From Acidobacteriota bacterium (GTDB lineage: Bacteria > Acidobacteriota > Terriglobia > Terriglobales > Acidobacteriaceae): a stretch of 62,309 nucleotides of DNA. Under the pieces are notes generated by a model. The model saw nothing but the letters and a program-made list of their open reading frames with translations. It did no database searches and had not been told where the DNA came from. A program made the position numbers and the translations under genes. Positions 2,956 through 47,083 of the stretch are shown here, piece after piece (within the stretch, counting starts at the first letter, position 1; each line of letters starts with the position of its first letter). Location: positions 1 through 62,309 of the forward strand of contig QHZY01000003.1 of the NCBI GenBank assembly GCA_003224855.1, given 5' to 3'.

Positions 2956-3554
2956 AACCGCACCTTCGCGCGAGCATACTACTGCCCCTGCTTGCGCTGG
3001 GGGGCTGCCGGCTTGACATGCAGGACCAGCCCAAGTTCAAACCACTGGCGGAAAACGCATTCTACGCTGATCTGCGCTCGGCGCGCGATCCCATTGCCGG
3101 AACAGTGGCGCGCGGGCAGTTGCATGAAGACTCGTACTTCTACACCGGAAAAATCGGCAACAATCCGGGCGACTACATGCCATTTCCTGTAAGCACGGAG
3201 GTGATGGCCCGCGGACAGGACCGCTTCAATATTTATTGCTCTCCCTGCCACTCGCGAGTGGGCGACGGTAACGGAATGATCGTGCAGCGCGGGTATCGCC
3301 GTCCGCCTTCGTATCACATCGATCGGCTTAGAAAAGCGCCACTAGGATATTTCTTCGACGTCATGACCAACGGCTTCGGCGCGATGCCGGATTACGCATC
3401 CCAGATTTCGCCGCGCGACCGCTGGACCATCGTCGCTTACATTCGCGCATTGCAACTGAGCCAGGACGCGGCCCAGGGTGACGTTCCCTCAGGGCAGAAG
3501 ATTCCATCGGAGACCTCGGCCGCCGACGCTCAAAGCAAGGAGCCATCACAATGA
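2952..3554 (+). CDS. actE: Alternative complex III mono-heme cytochrome c subunit ActE (lipoprotein)
   Basis: A 200-residue protein with a short lipoprotein signal ending in LALGGC (Cys19), so it is probably lipid-anchored on the outer face of the inner membrane. One heme-binding CSPCH motif lies at residues 96-100, and GAMPDY downstream supplies a likely axial Met. The family passes electrons from the Fe-S subunit to the oxidase or to another cytochrome c. The start is a TTG that overlaps the actD stop; no other start gives a full signal peptide. The C-terminal 25 residues are low in complexity and rich in Ser, Ala and Lys. Confidence 0.94.
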   Translation: MKPHLRASILLPLLALGGCRLDMQDQPKFKPLAENAFYADLRSARDPIAGTVARGQLHEDSYFYTGKIGNNPGDYMPFPVSTEVMARGQDRFNIYCSPCHSRVGDGNGMIVQRGYRRPPSYHIDRLRKAPLGYFFDVMTNGFGAMPDYASQISPRDRWTIVAYIRALQLSQDAAQGDVPSGQKIPSETSAADAQSKEPSQ

Positions 3555-4762
3555 GCGCCTTGCTCTGGAAGCCCGAAGACCTGCTGGCGCCGCCCATCGT
3601 CAAGGTGTACCAGCGCCGTTTTCTGATCGCCGGCGTAGTCGCATCGGTCATTGTCATAATCGGGGGTTTTTTCCAACCGCGAGTTTTCTTCCGCGGATAC
3701 CTCATCAGCTTCATGGATTGGCTCGGAGTCGCGCTCGGTTCCATGGTGATTCTTATGCTCCGCCATCTCACCAAAGGCGGTTGGGGCATGATTATCCGGC
3801 GCATCCAGGGCGCGGCCATGCGTACGATTCCCTTGATGACGGTATTTTTCATTCCGCTTATTTTTGGAGCCAGATACCTCTATATCTGGACGCAGCCCGA
3901 CAAAGTTTCCGACCCGCACCTGCGCAAACACCTGGAAGAGGTCAGTTCCTACCTTTCTCTCAAAGGCTTTGTTCTGCGTGCCCTGGTTTACTTTGCCATC
4001 TGGAACCTGCTCTCGTACCTTCTCACCAAGTGGTCGAAAGAGCAGGACACTCCTCCCGTCCGCGACAACAGCCAGCGCTTTAAGGTTCTGAGTGGCCCGG
4101 GCATCATTCTCTACGGCTTCACGATTTCCTTTGCCGCAATCGATTGGGTTATGTCGCTCGACCCCAGCTGGTTTTCGACCATTTACCCGCTGATCATTCT
4201 GATCGGCGAAGTGCTCTCGGCATTCTGTTTCGCCATCGTGGTGGAACGCGTTCTGTTCAACTACCGGCCCATGTCCGAACTGCTGAAGCCGGAATATGTG
4301 CACGACCACGGTAAGTTCATGCTGACCTTCATCATGGTCTGGGCTTACTTTTCGTTCTCGCAGTGGCTGATTATCTGGGCCGGGGATTTGCCGGAAGAGA
4401 TTTCGTTCTACCTGCGGCGCATAAACGGTGGCTGGGGCTGGGTCGCGATAGCGCTCGTGCTTTTTCACTTCGCCATGCCTTTCATCCTTCTTTTGTCCCG
4501 CCCATTCAAGCGGGACATCACTCGCCTGGTGTGGCTTGCAGTGTGGATGCTGTTTATGCGTTATGTCGATCTGTTCTGGCTGGCGGAGGCGAATTTCTCT
4601 GAGACTTTCACCGTGACCTGGGCAGATATCGCCGTGCCTATTGCCATGGGATGTTTATGGCTGGCTTATTTCTGCCGGAACCTGAGTTCGATGCCGCTGG
4701 TTCCGGCTTACGATTCGTTTGCTTCGGAGGTGCTCGAACCGGCTCACGAGCATTCGGTCTGA
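3551..4762 (+). CDS. actF: Alternative complex III membrane subunit ActF (NrfD-like quinol-binding subunit)
   Basis: A 403-residue polytopic protein with about ten membrane helices, related to ActC. Family-like sequence is seen in MSLDPSWFSTIYPLI and in YFSFSQWLIIWAGDLPEEI, which is highly conserved in ActF. The two NrfD-like subunits are believed to form the quinol-oxidising and possibly proton-moving core. The ATG overlaps the actE stop by 4 bases, and the stop shares one base with the start of the next small gene (TGATG). Confidence 0.95.
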   Translation: MSALLWKPEDLLAPPIVKVYQRRFLIAGVVASVIVIIGGFFQPRVFFRGYLISFMDWLGVALGSMVILMLRHLTKGGWGMIIRRIQGAAMRTIPLMTVFFIPLIFGARYLYIWTQPDKVSDPHLRKHLEEVSSYLSLKGFVLRALVYFAIWNLLSYLLTKWSKEQDTPPVRDNSQRFKVLSGPGIILYGFTISFAAIDWVMSLDPSWFSTIYPLIILIGEVLSAFCFAIVVERVLFNYRPMSELLKPEYVHDHGKFMLTFIMVWAYFSFSQWLIIWAGDLPEEISFYLRRINGGWGWVAIALVLFHFAMPFILLLSRPFKRDITRLVWLAVWMLFMRYVDLFWLAEANFSETFTVTWADIAVPIAMGCLWLAYFCRNLSSMPLVPAYDSFASEVLEPAHEHSV

Positions 4763-40609: not shown

Positions 40610-41287
40610 TTACTTCACCTGGAACTCGATTGCCGATCCAAGCTCGACCTTTTCTCCGGGAAAGGGAGTTTGCGAGACGATAATGCTCGCTGGTGAAATT
40701 GGCGAACTGGCCTCGGCAATTGTAGTAGCTTTGGGTTCGTGAAACCCTGCATCCTTTAAGGCGAGGGTTGCCGAACCCAACGGCTGGCCGGCAAAGTTCG
40801 GCATTACGAACGCTTGCTGCGCCCCCGGAGTACCAAACAACAAGCTGATTCTGGGCGATGAAATTCCGCGGGCGCTTGGCGGGGGCGATTGGGCAATCAC
40901 TCGCTCGTCGGCCATTTCGGGGATGTCAGTGCGCGCAACCATACCAAGTTCAATTCCACGCCGACGAAGATTAAGGTCCGCAGCTCGTTCGCTCTGACCA
41001 GTCAGATCAGGGATTTCAATGCGCTGCGGCCCCAGGCTCTCGGCCGCGCGAATTTGCCAGCTGCGCCGAACCTGGCTGCCGGCAGAAGGAGATTGCGAGA
41101 CGATTCGGCCCTCGGGAACACTCGCGCTGAAGAATTGCCGGTCCAGAATCAGTTGCAGGTTCTTTTGGCTGGCGAGCCGTCGAGCGTCTGCCACGGTTTG
41201 GCCGGCGAGGTCGGGTACGGTTACCTCACGTCCATGGATCGCAATGCTCATGGTGATCAAAGCAGAAACAAGCGCGACCACGATCAT
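40610..41287 (-). CDS. Membrane-anchored protein with three PASTA domains, no kinase
   Basis: At least 225 residues: an N-terminal membrane helix followed by three PASTA units, recognised by VTVPDLAGQTVADARRLA, IEIPDLTGQSERAADLNL and FVMPNFAGQPLGSATLAL. PASTA domains bind muropeptides or beta-lactam-like ligands and usually belong to Ser/Thr kinases or PBPs; here there is no kinase domain. The helix seems to start before ATG 41287 (reading NLKTFFRVVLVGLAMIVV), so the true start may be a rare codon such as ATT at 41332. It follows PBP1A by 40 bases. Confidence 0.88.
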   Translation of the reverse strand: MIVVALVSALITMSIAIHGREVTVPDLAGQTVADARRLASQKNLQLILDRQFFSASVPEGRIVSQSPSAGSQVRRSWQIRAAESLGPQRIEIPDLTGQSERAADLNLRRRGIELGMVARTDIPEMADERVIAQSPPPSARGISSPRISLLFGTPGAQQAFVMPNFAGQPLGSATLALKDAGFHEPKATTIAEASSPISPASIIVSQTPFPGEKVELGSAIEFQVK

Positions 41288-41327: not shown

Positions 41328-43586
41328 TTAATGGCTCTCCTCCGCAGCCGGAGCGGTGTCGGGTGTATCGAGCCTGGTTTGGGTTGAAGCAGTGAGGGGC
41401 GCCGGGGCTGCGGGGAAGTCTCCCGGCGGACGTCCCACAGCGGCTGCTTTCATAAACTCCATCCAGATGGGCAGCGCAGCGCGCGCGCCGCTCTCTTTAG
41501 CGCCCAGAGTTTTCTTTTCGTCATATCCCACCCAGACGCCACAAGTAACGGAAGGTGAGAAGCCCACGAACCAGGCATCAGTGAAATTATTCGTGGTGCC
41601 GGTTTTACCAGCGAGAGGCAGCTTCAAGCCGGCCGCCGCGATCGCAGTACCGTGCTGCACAACTTCCTGCAGCATGGAAGTCATAGTGCGCGCGGTGTTG
41701 GCGCTAACTACATCACGAACGTCGGCGAAGTTTTCTTCCAGCACTTGTCCATCGTAATCCGTCACTTTCGTGAGATAGCGCGGAGTGATGCGGACGCCGT
41801 CATTCGGAAAGGCGCTATACGCAGCGGTCTGCTCGAACAGTGTAATGTCGGCTGCGCCCAGCGCAATCGGCAAATATTCCGGAAGGTTGGAGGTGATACC
41901 GAAGCGACGAGCGTAGCCAATCACAGTCTTGATGCCAAGTTGCTCGGCCAGCCTGAGGGCAGGGATATTCCGAGACTGCGCCAAAGCACGCCGCAAGCTG
42001 ATGGTGCCTTCAAACTTTTCATCGTAGTTGTGGGGAACATAGGGCCCGGAGGCAGTCTGAAACATGGCGGGAGCATCCAGAACCGGGTCGTCGGGCCGCG
42101 CACCGCGATCGATGGCGGCCGTATAAACGTAAGGCTTGAATGATGATCCTGCCTGCCGAAGGGCCTGAGTAGCGCGGTTAAACTTTGAGAGATTAGAGTC
42201 GCGGCCGCCAACCATGGCGAGAATTTCTCCTGTGCTGTTGTCAATGGCGATCAGCGCTCCCTGAACACCGCTATCCTGTTCAAGAGTGACTGCCGCCTTG
42301 CCATCCGGTGTCAGCGTCAAAATCTTCACATACACCACGTCTCCGGGCTTCAGTAGCTGCAGTAATTTGCGGTGAGTCCATGTGGCTTGCGCGGGGGTGA
42401 TCCTGGCGCTGAACCGCCCAAGTTTGACACTGGCGAAGCTTGCGGAAACCTGGGTGACAACACCATGGATATATCCCGCTTCTTCAGGCTCTTCATCCCA
42501 ATCCGGGTGCTGGTAGGAACTGATCAACATGCCGGAATCGATGACGTTTTCCAGGTGGCCTTTCCAGCCGTGGCGACGCTCATATGCCGCCAGACCATCG
42601 AGCACCGCGCGATTGGCGGCATGCTGCAGATTGCTGTCGATTGAGGTGTAAACCCGCAGGCCGCCTTCGTGCACCTGATCACTGCCGTATTTTCCTTCCA
42701 GATAGCGGCGCAGTTCCTCAACGAAGTACGGCGCGAGCGAGGGGGGATCACGCGCCAGCATCAACTGTAGCGGCTGTATACGGCTTTGGGCCGCCTGTAC
42801 AGCGGTGATCTTTCCATCTTCGAGCATGGCGTTGATCACCAGGTTGCGGCGCTTGATAGCGCGATCAGGATGGGCTATGGGCGAATAGATGCTGGGCGAT
42901 TTCGGCAAGCCTGCGAGAAGCGCTGCTTCCTGCAGCATCAAATCCGCCGCCGGTTTTTTGAAGTAGAACTGGGAGGCCGCCTCAAAGCCATAGACGCCGT
43001 GGCCGAGATAGATCTGATTCGCGTAGAGTGTGAAAATCTGCTGCTTGGTGAAACGACGCTCAATCTGGATGGCCAGCAGAGCTTCCTGAATTTTTCTGTG
43101 AAACGAGCGGTCGGGGGAAAGGAACAGGTTACGGGCAAGTTGCATGGTCAGCGTGGACGCGCCCTGAACTCTACCCCCGGAAAGAATGTCTCGGTAGGCG
43201 GCGCCGGCGATGCGCCAAACATTAACTCCCCAGTGACGGTAAAAGTCCTTGTCTTCGATCGCAATCAGGGCGTCTCGCAGCACCTGCGGATATTGTTCAT
43301 ACGTCGCAATGACCCGGTGCTGCAAAGCGAAGGTTCCGATGACGTGGCGTTGTGAGTCATACAATTCGGTCACTGCGCTCGGCCGGTAACGCTCCAGTTG
43401 TTCAACCTGCGGAAGATCGGTGGAATAAACCAGAACCAGGCCAGCGGTGGCGCCGGCGAGCGCTGACACGAACATCAGCAAGCTGATGATTATCCAGCCT
43501 AAGATTTTGCGAGGAACTACATCGGTTTCGGGCGCGAGCTTGACAACTGCTTTCACGGAAGATCGTGAGGTTAGGATAGCAGGCAA
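41328..43586 (-). CDS. Class A penicillin-binding protein (PBP1A type)
   Basis: A 752-residue bifunctional peptidoglycan synthase: membrane helix at about 28-55, glycosyltransferase 51 domain (catalytic Glu in AIEDKDFYRHWG, then GASTLTMQLARNLFLS and KIQEALLAIQIE), and transpeptidase domain with SSFK (in AGSSFKPYVYTAA), SRN and KTGTTNN. The start is TTG 43586, not well supported; GTG 43556 is another choice. Lies in an operon between the S41-like and PASTA genes, which points to shared work in wall growth. Confidence 0.95.
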   Translation of the reverse strand: MPAILTSRSSVKAVVKLAPETDVVPRKILGWIIISLLMFVSALAGATAGLVLVYSTDLPQVEQLERYRPSAVTELYDSQRHVIGTFALQHRVIATYEQYPQVLRDALIAIEDKDFYRHWGVNVWRIAGAAYRDILSGGRVQGASTLTMQLARNLFLSPDRSFHRKIQEALLAIQIERRFTKQQIFTLYANQIYLGHGVYGFEAASQFYFKKPAADLMLQEAALLAGLPKSPSIYSPIAHPDRAIKRRNLVINAMLEDGKITAVQAAQSRIQPLQLMLARDPPSLAPYFVEELRRYLEGKYGSDQVHEGGLRVYTSIDSNLQHAANRAVLDGLAAYERRHGWKGHLENVIDSGMLISSYQHPDWDEEPEEAGYIHGVVTQVSASFASVKLGRFSARITPAQATWTHRKLLQLLKPGDVVYVKILTLTPDGKAAVTLEQDSGVQGALIAIDNSTGEILAMVGGRDSNLSKFNRATQALRQAGSSFKPYVYTAAIDRGARPDDPVLDAPAMFQTASGPYVPHNYDEKFEGTISLRRALAQSRNIPALRLAEQLGIKTVIGYARRFGITSNLPEYLPIALGAADITLFEQTAAYSAFPNDGVRITPRYLTKVTDYDGQVLEENFADVRDVVSANTARTMTSMLQEVVQHGTAIAAAGLKLPLAGKTGTTNNFTDAWFVGFSPSVTCGVWVGYDEKKTLGAKESGARAALPIWMEFMKAAAVGRPPGDFPAAPAPLTASTQTRLDTPDTAPAAEESH

Positions 43587-43616: not shown

Positions 43617-44834
43617 TTAGCTGGTACGGCTGCTCAATACCTGAATCGCCTTCTGCAACTGATCATCCTGCGGCGAAGGCTGCTTCTTCTCGTCCTGGGC
43701 GGGCGTGGCATTTTCGTCCTCATCCGGTAGCGCGGAACCATCATCGCCGCTATCGGCAACCAGTACGTTGGGGGTGACCGCGCTATCCTGAATCGCTTTG
43801 CCGCCGGGCGAATAGTATTTCGCCACTGAAAGAATCAAGGCAGAGCCATCGGGCAGTTCAATCACTTTCTGAATTGCCCCATCTCCGAAAGTCTTGTCTC
43901 CGACCACGTCTCCGCGGGCATTTTCGAGCACTGCCGCGGCAACCACTTCAGCCGCACCGGCTGTCCCCTTATTAACAAGAACCACCAGCGGCAGAGCGGT
44001 TATGTCTTTCGTGGGGTCGGCATTGAATGCCTCACGGGGATATTTCTGGCCCTGCAGGTAGGTGATGGTCCCGTGATTCAGGAACAGGTTGGCGACCGCG
44101 ATGCCTTCAGCCTCGTCCCCTTCCGCGCAATTGCGCAGGTCGAGAATCAGCTTCTTCGCACCCGATTTCTGCAGTGACCGGATCTTGGCAGCAATCTCTT
44201 GGGCCTTGCCTTTGGTGAGGGCGTCAACCTGGATGTAGCCGATTCCATCCTGCACCATCTTGTCAGAAATTGGCGGGATCGCAACGTTTTCACGGGTGAT
44301 CGTAATTTTCTGGGGTTCAGCACGGCGGGCGCGCACAAGCGCGACACTCACAGTCGATCCCGGTTCGCCTTCAAGAAGGTTATGAATCTCAGCCAGCGAC
44401 ATTTCGCGAGTGCTCTTGGCTTCAATTGCTTCAATGATGTCGGAAGCCTGAATGCCCGCCTTATCCGCCGGACCGCCCGGAATTACTGATATCACTGCCG
44501 CATAACCGAACCGCTTGGATACGGCGGCTCCGATCTCTGCCTTGGCACTGGTCTTATGCGATTTGTACTCTTTGTATTCGGCGGGGCTCAGATAGCTCGA
44601 ATTCGGGTCGAGCGATTCCAGCAGGCCATGCAGGGCTCCATCGGTGACCTGCGGGATATTCGGTTCCTCGACATACTCGCTGCGGACTCTGGAAAGCACC
44701 TCACTGTATACCTGCAACTGGCGATAAGCGCCATCGTTGCTGGAGGCCCGGACGCCGCTGGAGCCGCCCACCAGAATGAAAAGAAGAATGGCGCTGGAAC
44801 AAGTAAGTATGGTTGCTTTTAACATTTTGGACAT
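43617..44834 (-). CDS. S41/CtpA-family protein with PDZ domain, predicted catalytically inactive
   Basis: A 405-residue exported or membrane-anchored protein (signal helix about 8-30). It has the CtpA order: helical N-part (SEVLSRVRSEYVEEP, LDPNSSYLSPAEYKEY), PDZ (about 98-172) and S41 core. In active CtpA the motif is GTASASE with catalytic Ser, and 25 residues later FGKG with catalytic Lys. Here these read GTAGAAE (Gly293 for Ser) and FGDG (Asp318 for Lys); the nearby Gln322 is kept. The DLRNNPGG loop is also changed to DLRNCAEGD. So a dead protease fold used as binding scaffold is likely. Acidic C-terminal tail. It is 30 bases before PBP1A. ATG with GAGGA upstream. Confidence 0.9.
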   Translation of the reverse strand: MSKMLKATILTCSSAILLFILVGGSSGVRASSNDGAYRQLQVYSEVLSRVRSEYVEEPNIPQVTDGALHGLLESLDPNSSYLSPAEYKEYKSHKTSAKAEIGAAVSKRFGYAAVISVIPGGPADKAGIQASDIIEAIEAKSTREMSLAEIHNLLEGEPGSTVSVALVRARRAEPQKITITRENVAIPPISDKMVQDGIGYIQVDALTKGKAQEIAAKIRSLQKSGAKKLILDLRNCAEGDEAEGIAVANLFLNHGTITYLQGQKYPREAFNADPTKDITALPLVVLVNKGTAGAAEVVAAAVLENARGDVVGDKTFGDGAIQKVIELPDGSALILSVAKYYSPGGKAIQDSAVTPNVLVADSGDDGSALPDEDENATPAQDEKKQPSPQDDQLQKAIQVLSSRTS

Positions 44835-45052: not shown

Positions 45053-45718
45053 ATGATGATGAGAGGACTATTGGTTGCAATCATGGCATTGTCAAGCTTC
45101 GCAAGCGGGGCGCGAGCCGATTCAGGAGAGTGGAAGCAACTGTTCGACGGCCAGGACCTGACGGGGTGGAAACACGTCGGGCCCGGCCAGATGACGGTCG
45201 AAAATGGCTTGATTCAAACCCACGGAGGTATGGGGCTGCTTTACTGGACCGGAGGGAAGTTGGGCGACTGCGTGATCCGGGTGGTTTTCAAAATGCGAGA
45301 CCATAACAGCAATTCCGGCGTTTTCATTCGAATTCCGGTTGAACCTCGTGAAGAATGGATGCCGGTCCATTATGGCTACGAAGTTCAAATCGACAATGAG
45401 CCGGAGAAGTCGAATGAAGACGATTACCACGTTACGGGAACGCTTTATTCGCTAACCAAACCGCTGGCTCGCCCTGGAAAACCCGGTCCTGAGTGGAACA
45501 CCATGGAAATTACCCTGGACGGACCTAAGACGACGGTTGTGGTGAACGGCGTGAAGGTGACGGAATACACCGAAGGCGAGCCGGTTCCGGAGCGGAAGTT
45601 TGATTTTGAGCCGCAGCGTGGCACTCGCCCGAACCAGGGGTACATAGGGTTGCAGAACCATAGCGATAATGACATCGTGTTTTTTAAAGAAGTTGCGGTG
45701 AAGATGCTTACCAAGTGA
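45053..45718 (+). CDS. DUF1080 (3-keto-disaccharide hydrolase-type) exported protein
   Basis: A 221-residue protein with signal peptide (cleavage after GARA) and a concanavalin-like DUF1080 domain: WKQLFDGQDLTGWKHVG at the start, SNSGVFIRIPV, YGYEVQIDNE and GYIGLQNHSDNDIVFFKEV at the end. The domain family includes 3-keto-glycoside hydrolases that act with Gfo/Idh-type oxidoreductases; such a gene follows 16 bases later. GGAG lies 7 bases before the first of three ATG codons. Confidence 0.92.
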   Translation: MMMRGLLVAIMALSSFASGARADSGEWKQLFDGQDLTGWKHVGPGQMTVENGLIQTHGGMGLLYWTGGKLGDCVIRVVFKMRDHNSNSGVFIRIPVEPREEWMPVHYGYEVQIDNEPEKSNEDDYHVTGTLYSLTKPLARPGKPGPEWNTMEITLDGPKTTVVVNGVKVTEYTEGEPVPERKFDFEPQRGTRPNQGYIGLQNHSDNDIVFFKEVAVKMLTK

Positions 45719-45733
45719 GCGAACGGAGGATTC

Positions 45734-47083
45734 ATGACCAGCAATTTCTCGCGCCGGCGATTCCTGGAAATCAGCGCAGCAGTGGCAGGGGCCGGTCTGG
45801 CTGCCAAAACGATCATTCTTGATCCCGATCCACTGTATGCGCTTCCACAATCGGGTCCAGCAGAACAGGTGCGCTTCGGCATCATCGGCATCGGCATGCA
45901 GGGATCTGGTCTGCTGCAGAATGCAATTCAGCTGCCCGGGGTGGAATGCGTAGCGGCTTGCGATCTTTATGATGGGCGGCATACTCTGGCGCGAGAGATC
46001 ACCAACAATCCCAGCTTGCCGGTAACACGGCGCTACCACGATTTGCTCGCGAACAAAGAAATCGAATGTCTGATTGCCGCCGTTCCGGACCATTGGCACA
46101 AGCAGATTGTGGTGGACGCATGCAATGCGGGCAAAGACATTTATTGTGAGAAACCGATGTCTCACACCGCGGCTGAAGGCGTGGATATGTATACCGCGGC
46201 GCAGAAGAATAATCGGATCGTACAGATCGGGTCACAGCGCGTCAGTTCGGTTTTGTGTGCAAAAGCAAAGGAAATGGTGGCGCAAGGAGCGCTCGGCGAC
46301 CTGATGATGGTGGAGGGCTGGCTGGGACGCAATGATCCGACAGGAGCGTGGGAGTATCCTCCTCCATTCGATCTGTCGCCGCAGAATCTCGACTGGGAAA
46401 CCTGGCAGGGCACGGTGCCAAAGATAGAATTCAATCCCAACAAATTCGCCCGCTGGCGTTGCTGGAGAGCGTATGGGACCGGTGTGGCAGGCGATCTGCT
46501 GGTTCACCTGGTCAGCGGCATGATGTTTGTGCTCGGGATCAACGAGCCACCAAAGCACGCCATGGCCATGGGCGGTATTCTGCGCTGGAAGGATGGACGG
46601 GACATGCCTGATGTTCATGCAGCGTTGTTCCAATACGGAGATATTCCGGTTTACATGCGCCTGAACCTGGGCACGGAAATGCCGGAGACATACCGGTTCC
46701 AGGGATCAAAGGGAATCATCGAGTTGACCGAATTCGGCCTGAGCTACACGCCTCAGACCGGCGTCGACAACAGCCCCAGTTACTACACGGTGAGTTTCCC
46801 GAAAGCGATGCGGGAGGAATACCTGAACAAATGGCATGAGGAGTATGATCCCAAACCAGGGAAGGAACCGTTGTTCGAGGCGGTCAGCTACAAGGGCAAT
46901 GACTTCGATGATGTGAAGCCGCATCTGTGGAATTTCTTCCGTGCGGTAAAAACGCGGAAGCCGGTAGTGGAAGACGCGGTATTTGGCCACCATGCAGCAC
47001 TGGCCTGCCACATGGCAAATGAAGCGTACTTCAGAAACACAGCGGTGACCTGGGATGCGACCTCAAAGACCATAAAAAGCTAA
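45734..47083 (+). CDS. Gfo/Idh/MocA-family oxidoreductase with Tat signal
   Basis: A 449-residue protein starting with a twin-arginine signal (SRRRFLEISAAVAGAGLAA). The NAD(P) fold shows FGIIGIGMQGSGLLQNA and the catalytic EKP in IYCEKPMSHTAAEG. It is probably periplasmic with a tightly bound cofactor, like glucose-fructose oxidoreductase-type members, and likely oxidises or isomerises a sugar together with the DUF1080 protein. Strong ribosome site GGAGG. The end has a doubled AAAAGCTAA, giving two possible stops in tandem. Confidence 0.92.
   Translation: MTSNFSRRRFLEISAAVAGAGLAAKTIILDPDPLYALPQSGPAEQVRFGIIGIGMQGSGLLQNAIQLPGVECVAACDLYDGRHTLAREITNNPSLPVTRRYHDLLANKEIECLIAAVPDHWHKQIVVDACNAGKDIYCEKPMSHTAAEGVDMYTAAQKNNRIVQIGSQRVSSVLCAKAKEMVAQGALGDLMMVEGWLGRNDPTGAWEYPPPFDLSPQNLDWETWQGTVPKIEFNPNKFARWRCWRAYGTGVAGDLLVHLVSGMMFVLGINEPPKHAMAMGGILRWKDGRDMPDVHAALFQYGDIPVYMRLNLGTEMPETYRFQGSKGIIELTEFGLSYTPQTGVDNSPSYYTVSFPKAMREEYLNKWHEEYDPKPGKEPLFEAVSYKGNDFDDVKPHLWNFFRAVKTRKPVVEDAVFGHHAALACHMANEAYFRNTAVTWDATSKTIKS

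Follow-up and report, generated by a model that had tools for sequence, protein, structure and literature searches.

A phylum-wide relative of CtpA suggests that Acidobacteriota use a non-cutting former protease to manage the cell wall

Why would bacteria keep a gene for a protease whose catalytic residues have been replaced? The question is raised by a gene in the window, the 62,309-nucleotide stretch of acidobacterial DNA analysed here. Its product, which we call pseudo-CtpA, resembles CtpA, which has been regarded as a protease that governs the wall through the degradation of hydrolases. The source genome assembly comprises 3.74 Mb in 274 contigs and is 92% complete. Its closest named relatives are acidobacterial MAGs.

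The window gene and its active site

The open reading frame of pseudo-CtpA runs from ATG to stop without interruption. The gene and its domains are as follows.

43617..44834, minus strand: pseudo-CtpA, a very probably catalytically dead S41A protease homologue of 405 aa (ORF, Pfam, NCBIfam, relatives, tree)
44745..44834, minus strand: probable signal peptide or membrane anchor, hydrophobic N-terminal residues 1-30 (sequence; predicted helix 3-22 in the model)
44289..44546, minus strand: PDZ domain, residues 97-182 (Pfam PDZ_6, PDZ_2 and PDZ; model)
43761..44243, minus strand: Peptidase_S41 core, residues 198-358 (Pfam PF03572, 132 bits)
43629..43667, minus strand: residues 390-402, a C-terminal helix that follows an acidic linker of low complexity (helix 391-401 in the model; conserved in relatives)

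By its domains the protein belongs to S41A/CtpA, with PF03572 (E 1.5e-38) and PDZ both above the Pfam cut-off. It also scores 232.1 bits against a cut-off of 218.6 with TIGR00225, the NCBIfam model of the 'prc' subfamily (C-terminal processing peptidase). The reading frame and these matches bear out the intact frame, kept fold and kept PDZ domain of a preliminary description of the gene. The hydrophobic N-terminal stretch makes a periplasmic location probable.

The structure was predicted with AlphaFold from 30 rows (mean pLDDT 63) and again from 65 rows (mean pLDDT 69, pTM 0.65). In the second model the PDZ domain and much of the core are confident, and the N-terminal segment and residues 317-319 and 349-388 are weak. 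Gly293 is placed at the start of a predicted helix formed by residues 293-304. The top structural matches (Foldseek, VIA-align) are the CtpA proteins of P. aeruginosa and H. pylori, with Z 29-30 over 314-330 residues. P. aeruginosa CtpA (PDB 7RPQ, 8SXE-8SXH; partner LbcA) is also the best match in sequence and has the same domain order. Helicobacter pylori CtpA (PDB 9JR1, 9KU0) matches with Z 30; unlike pseudo-CtpA, it is an active protease, with Ser300, Lys325 and Gln329 (PMC12749690). In position, residues 390-402 correspond to the C-terminal dimerization region named for the P. aeruginosa enzyme (PMC8764530). Segments matching both the N- and C-terminal dimerization regions are present and conserved in the clade; the N-terminal part is of low confidence in the model.

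Residue equivalences were taken from an alignment to P. aeruginosa CtpA (PDB 7rpq), with the numbering checked. Each of the following assignments comes from that alignment.

44601..44603, minus strand: Asn78, replacing His84 (the His of LDPHS) of P. aeruginosa CtpA (role of His84, PMC11021448)
44118..44129, minus strand: CAEG, residues 236-239, replacing NPGG (of DLRNNPGG)
43956..43958, minus strand: Gly293, replacing the catalytic Ser nucleophile (Ser302 of P. aeruginosa CtpA)
43881..43883, minus strand: Asp318, replacing the catalytic Lys base (Lys327 of P. aeruginosa CtpA)
43869..43871, minus strand: Gln322, retained (Gln331 of P. aeruginosa CtpA)

Four catalytic elements are therefore lost. 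The preliminary description had numbered Gly293, Asp318 and Gln322 correctly and had recognized the Ser and Lys losses; it overlooked the change of His84 to Asn78 and that of NPGG, the oxyanion-hole motif, to CAEG. In P. aeruginosa CtpA, His84 lies within hydrogen-bonding distance of the Lys and its mutation lowers activity (PMC11021448). The substitutions S302A and K327A each abolish activity in vivo (PMC11021448). Since pseudo-CtpA is without both residues whose single mutation is sufficient for this, established chemistry indicates that it should not be a protease. Judged from its sequence, we regard it as dead with little doubt.

Spread, conservation and descent in the phylum

Relatives were collected from 61 related genomes, 74 named MAG loci and 297 genomes across the phylum (80 regions taken). 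Another 20 genomes were added from families with only one or two strong matches listed in the first survey. Conservation was counted over 196 distinct, near-complete clade members; because these are weighted towards the window's family (f1), the figures are counts of sequences and not of events. Members of that family share about 46-82% identity with the window protein.

Both Ser and Lys are absent in 191 of the 196 members, in line with the dead S41 protein first proposed for the window. Ser alone is kept in two (L178, L240), Lys alone in one (L208) and both in two (L187, L210). Close relatives with an intact Ser and Lys at the same locus were sought, and none was found among the relatives from the window's own family, which leaves the reading as a dead protein standing. 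The Ser position is Gly in 183/196. The Lys position is occupied by D (68), E (32), A (16), R (15), V (14), L (11), S (10), I (9) and others, and the Gln that follows is Q in 168. At the His84 position N, D, Y, F or another residue is found; ten residues, His not among them, cover 195/196 rows. Within the NPGG motif the Asn is kept in 8 members, the first Gly in 28 and the second in 188. Glu296 is kept in all 196, and Gly239 and Gly102 of the PDZ domain are also held. By contrast, 31/31 active S41 paralogs from Acidobacteriota have His, Asn, Gly, Ser, Lys and Gln at the six positions, so the losses in the clade exceed what chance would give.

These counts do not agree with a Gly/Asp pair fixed in the clade, for which the preliminary description had suggested a check. 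The Gly is fixed, and the second site varies freely, which rules the pair out. That Gly is kept at the Ser site while the Lys site varies indicates that the Ser position is under constraint and not decaying. A site that was merely released would not be expected to remain Gly. The coding sequences of pseudo-CtpA are under purifying selection, as had been proposed for the intact window gene. Within the window's family the median dN/dS is 0.07 and the maximum 0.24 over 450 pairs, by a simple counting method and with high dS in many pairs. A sequencing or frame artefact is ruled out by the same losses in independent genomes and assemblies. Intact frames, sequence conservation across genera and the low dN/dS likewise rule out a one-off pseudogene.

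Several individual copies depart from the common pattern. A member from a genome of the same class (L187, positions 2986-4200 of its locus, plus strand; genome G057) has Ser, Lys and Gln intact and NCGG for NPGG. Its active site was either retained or regained, and it offers a useful natural comparison. Two loci of one family (f33), both with the envC-ctpA-yibQ order, differ at the Ser site: L208 (2767-4185, plus strand) has Gly and Lys, whereas L210 (4869-6062, minus strand) has Ser and Lys. This pair is possibly a catalytic loss caught in progress. Three very divergent members (L241, L244 and L218) carry W/T/Y, G/L/R and Q/G/G at the Ser/Lys/Gln positions, which suggests that the remaining Gln may be dispensable in some families. 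In a 99% complete genome of the window's family (G147, contig C8, 154069-154752), the best match spans residues 2-226 only, in a 415-aa frame; the S41 half has perhaps been replaced or diverged.

In a tree of 88 proteins, all pseudo-CtpA sequences (72 rows) form one clade with SH-aLRT 100 and a stem of length 0.70. The clade persists with support 99 (66 rows) after removal of the catalytic columns and six unstable rows. Its sister group consists of the CtpA proteins of P. aeruginosa and H. pylori, which would make pseudo-CtpA orthologous to the envC-linked lineage; this relation is provisional since only two outside sequences were included, and some inner branches are weak. The active acidobacterial paralogs, of about 540 aa, form a separate group that is not sister to pseudo-CtpA. 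One of them is encoded in the source genome (L001, contig C58). It shares the superfamily and the PDZ and S41 domains with pseudo-CtpA, but its catalytic residues are all intact. Parsimony reconstructs three changes of the Ser-Lys pair on the tree, for instance an early loss followed by two returns; alternatively, an ancestor with Ser and Lys may have given rise to repeated losses. Pseudo-CtpA would thus be the acidobacterial branch of the envelope CtpA lineage, that of the proteobacterial envC-ctpA-yibQ operon. The conversion of the envelope CtpA to a pseudoprotease would have come early in Acidobacteriota, and the non-cutting protein would have been kept from then on.

Gene neighbourhoods

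Two genes follow pseudo-CtpA on the same strand.

41328..43586, minus strand: PBP1A with transglycosylase and transpeptidase domains, the next downstream gene (ORF, Pfam, NCBIfam)
40610..41287, minus strand: PASTA protein with three PASTA repeats and no kinase domain (ORF, Pfam, NCBIfam)

The gaps are 30 bp to PBP1A and then 40 bp to the PASTA gene, and the order is the one first described for the window. The arrangement is consistent with one operon. Scans for promoters and terminators gave results at chance level. The PASTA protein has a hydrophobic N-terminus and, among NCBIfam models, is matched best by the PASTA portion of Stk1-type kinases; a relative was found near pseudo-CtpA in only eight loci of the window's family. 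Beside the operon, a divergent pair of genes (45053-47083, plus strand) encodes a 3-keto-disaccharide hydrolase and a GFO/IDH/MocA oxidoreductase, with no evident wall link.

Among 119 testable loci of the window's family, 83 have PBP1A within 600 bp downstream in the same orientation, with a median gap of 136 bp; some of these loci are duplicates of one species. PBP1A is not adjacent in about 30%. Outside the family, no PBP1A above threshold was found beside pseudo-CtpA in flanks of up to 5 kb. The neighbour survey gave one PBP1A-like neighbour, in another Terriglobia locus. Because the PBP1A neighbourhood is practically confined to one family, PBP1A is ruled out as a universal partner and is unlikely to be the ancestral or sole one.

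The C-terminus of PBP1A was also compared. In most loci of the window's family (L033-L105), the last residues of PBP1A form a conserved tail, DTPDxAPxxxE[S/A]H, which is better kept than the Pro/Ala-rich stretch preceding it. It could be a docking tail. In five copies of the family (L172, L175-L177, L181) the tail is missing though PBP1A still follows pseudo-CtpA. A classical hydrophobic PDZ ligand is ruled out, as the last residue is non-hydrophobic in 45/46, mostly His.

Deep lineages have a different arrangement. In about 20 loci pseudo-CtpA is preceded, on its own strand, by a gene that resembles envC and has an M23 domain, and in 14 a divergent polysaccharide deacetylase gene of the YibQ/SddA family (PF04748) lies downstream; both flank pseudo-CtpA in nine. 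EnvC is an activator of amidases. P. aeruginosa has the same order in its envC-ctpA-PA5135 operon (PMC12569750); in E. coli, the orthologue of PA5135 deacetylates peptidoglycan (PMC12440217). The window lacks the envC-ctpA-yibQ order, and no PF04748 gene was found in the source genome; in contrast to P. aeruginosa ctpA, the window gene adjoins PBP1A. Of the nine loci with both neighbours, six are without Ser and Lys (L201, L204, L235, L236, L237, L238), so the catalytic loss did not need a departure from the wall operon. The other three have Ser only (L240), Lys only (L208) or both (L210).

A third type is found outside Terriglobia, where ruvX and mltG are divergent from pseudo-CtpA in 31/50 and 25/50 loci. 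Genes for HU, thrS, infC, rplT and pheS lie downstream in loci of this type, these names being read from the sequences. MltG, of the YceG family, is a lytic transglycosylase. Each of the three types therefore holds a peptidoglycan gene: envC-like/yibQ, mltG or PBP1A. The preliminary description had tied the gene to wall synthesis through PBP1A. The tie to wall genes stands, in three neighbourhoods; a general partnership with PBP1A does not. The association with PBP1A is genuine, though restricted in extent and of late origin, and the one with the wall is older.

Function of a CtpA that does not cut

In our preferred reading, pseudo-CtpA regulates wall enzymes by binding peptides and has no proteolytic activity, being derived from the envelope CtpA lineage by an early conversion to a pseudoprotease. 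We give this statement as a whole a probability of roughly 0.57. P. aeruginosa CtpA, with an adaptor, controls peptidoglycan hydrolases by degrading them (PMC8764530, PMC11021448). For a CtpA in which the PDZ domain, pocket and oligomerisation segments are kept and cutting is lost, the simplest role would be to bind the same kind of targets and to hold, shield or position them. Pseudo-CtpA would keep the CtpA fold, including the PDZ domain, the pocket for substrates and the segments for oligomerisation at both termini. It would be exported, form oligomers and bind, without cleavage, the unfolded ends or tails of peptidoglycan enzymes in the periplasm. There it would serve as a tether, a shield or an allosteric adaptor through which wall hydrolases and synthases are positioned or have their activity set; candidate partners are EnvC-dependent amidases, MltG and PBP1A.

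Several observations qualify this reading, among them the roughly 30% of testable loci in the window's family where PBP1A is not adjacent and the two clade members (L187, L210) that have both Ser and Lys. One of the two Gly in the ligand-binding loop of the PDZ domain (position 100) is often replaced, so classical C-terminal peptide binding may be weakened. In addition, ruvX, thrS and infC also adjoin pseudo-CtpA yet are unrelated to the wall, and neighbouring genes can be co-inherited without working together. More tentatively, and at somewhat less than even odds, we propose a single phylum-wide conversion of envelope CtpA to a regulator of peptidoglycan enzymes. This would be an ancient and nearly universal bacterial pseudo-CTP, with its wall neighbours (EnvC/YibQ, MltG, PBP1A) swapped over time.

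The chief rival, which we consider unlikely, is that pseudo-CtpA is a regulatory subunit of an active S41 paralog and tunes proteolysis through mixed oligomers or competition for an adaptor, as ClpR does for ClpP. Every genome with a dead copy that is at least 90% complete has another S41 protein, by a reading of the table for the 61 related genomes, source genome included. CtpA enzymes are trimers of dimers assembled through N- and C-terminal segments (PMC8764530), which pseudo-CtpA retains. ClpR of the chloroplast Clp protease is likewise a set of conserved dead relatives beside active ones (PMC6508832), but that protease family is unrelated to S41, and for pseudo-CtpA a shared complex is hypothetical. 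Against a subunit role, the active paralog belongs to a different clade of longer proteins and is encoded elsewhere, and a common interface of the two would be conjectural.

It is less probable still that pseudo-CtpA is a general periplasmic folding helper or hold-ase beside which the wall genes lie by coincidence. The neighbourhood does differ by class and includes the housekeeping genes thrS, infC, rplT, pheS and HU. This reading has to account, however, for three separate neighbourhoods that each contain a peptidoglycan gene and for a sister CtpA that regulates the wall.

The pocket might instead now carry a small ligand such as a lipid, which seems very improbable. Vertebrate retinol-binding protein 3 (RBP3, the interphotoreceptor retinoid-binding protein, IRBP) offers a precedent among dead S41 relatives: it has the S41 fold, has lost the catalytic residues of the protease and carries retinoids and fatty acids (PMC11750400). 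IRBP modules are among the structural matches of pseudo-CtpA with Z 14-16, as a resemblance of fold only; CtpA is far closer. RBP3 is built of repeated modules, serves retinoid transport and is not known to have a PDZ domain, whereas pseudo-CtpA keeps its PDZ domain and nothing in it points to a ligand. Least probable of all is a hydrolase that works through another residue pair. In its favour, Gln322 and Glu296 persist, Thr291 is conserved at 95% and some Lys near the site (K323, K346) are common in the window's family. Against it, Ser, Lys, the His84 equivalent and NPGG were all lost together; the best-kept Lys reaches 84% (K107, in the PDZ domain) and those near the site 63-77% despite a sample dominated by that family, and in a sample of better balance every Lys stays below 80%.

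By its descent and its fold pseudo-CtpA thus belongs to the CtpA lineage; by function it stands outside the protease family. MEROPS lists non-peptidase homologues. In the open-licence literature searched we found no described bacterial pseudo-CtpA and no account of this acidobacterial S41 clade. Because automatic annotation labels pseudo-CtpA an S41 peptidase, the number of proteases counted in each acidobacterial genome is probably too high by one. Acidobacteria are abundant in soil, and their wall biology is little studied. That the gene was kept and its chemistry dropped across the phylum suggests that part of the CtpA job may not be proteolysis. Acidobacteriota thereby offer a natural experiment on which role of CtpA needs no cutting.
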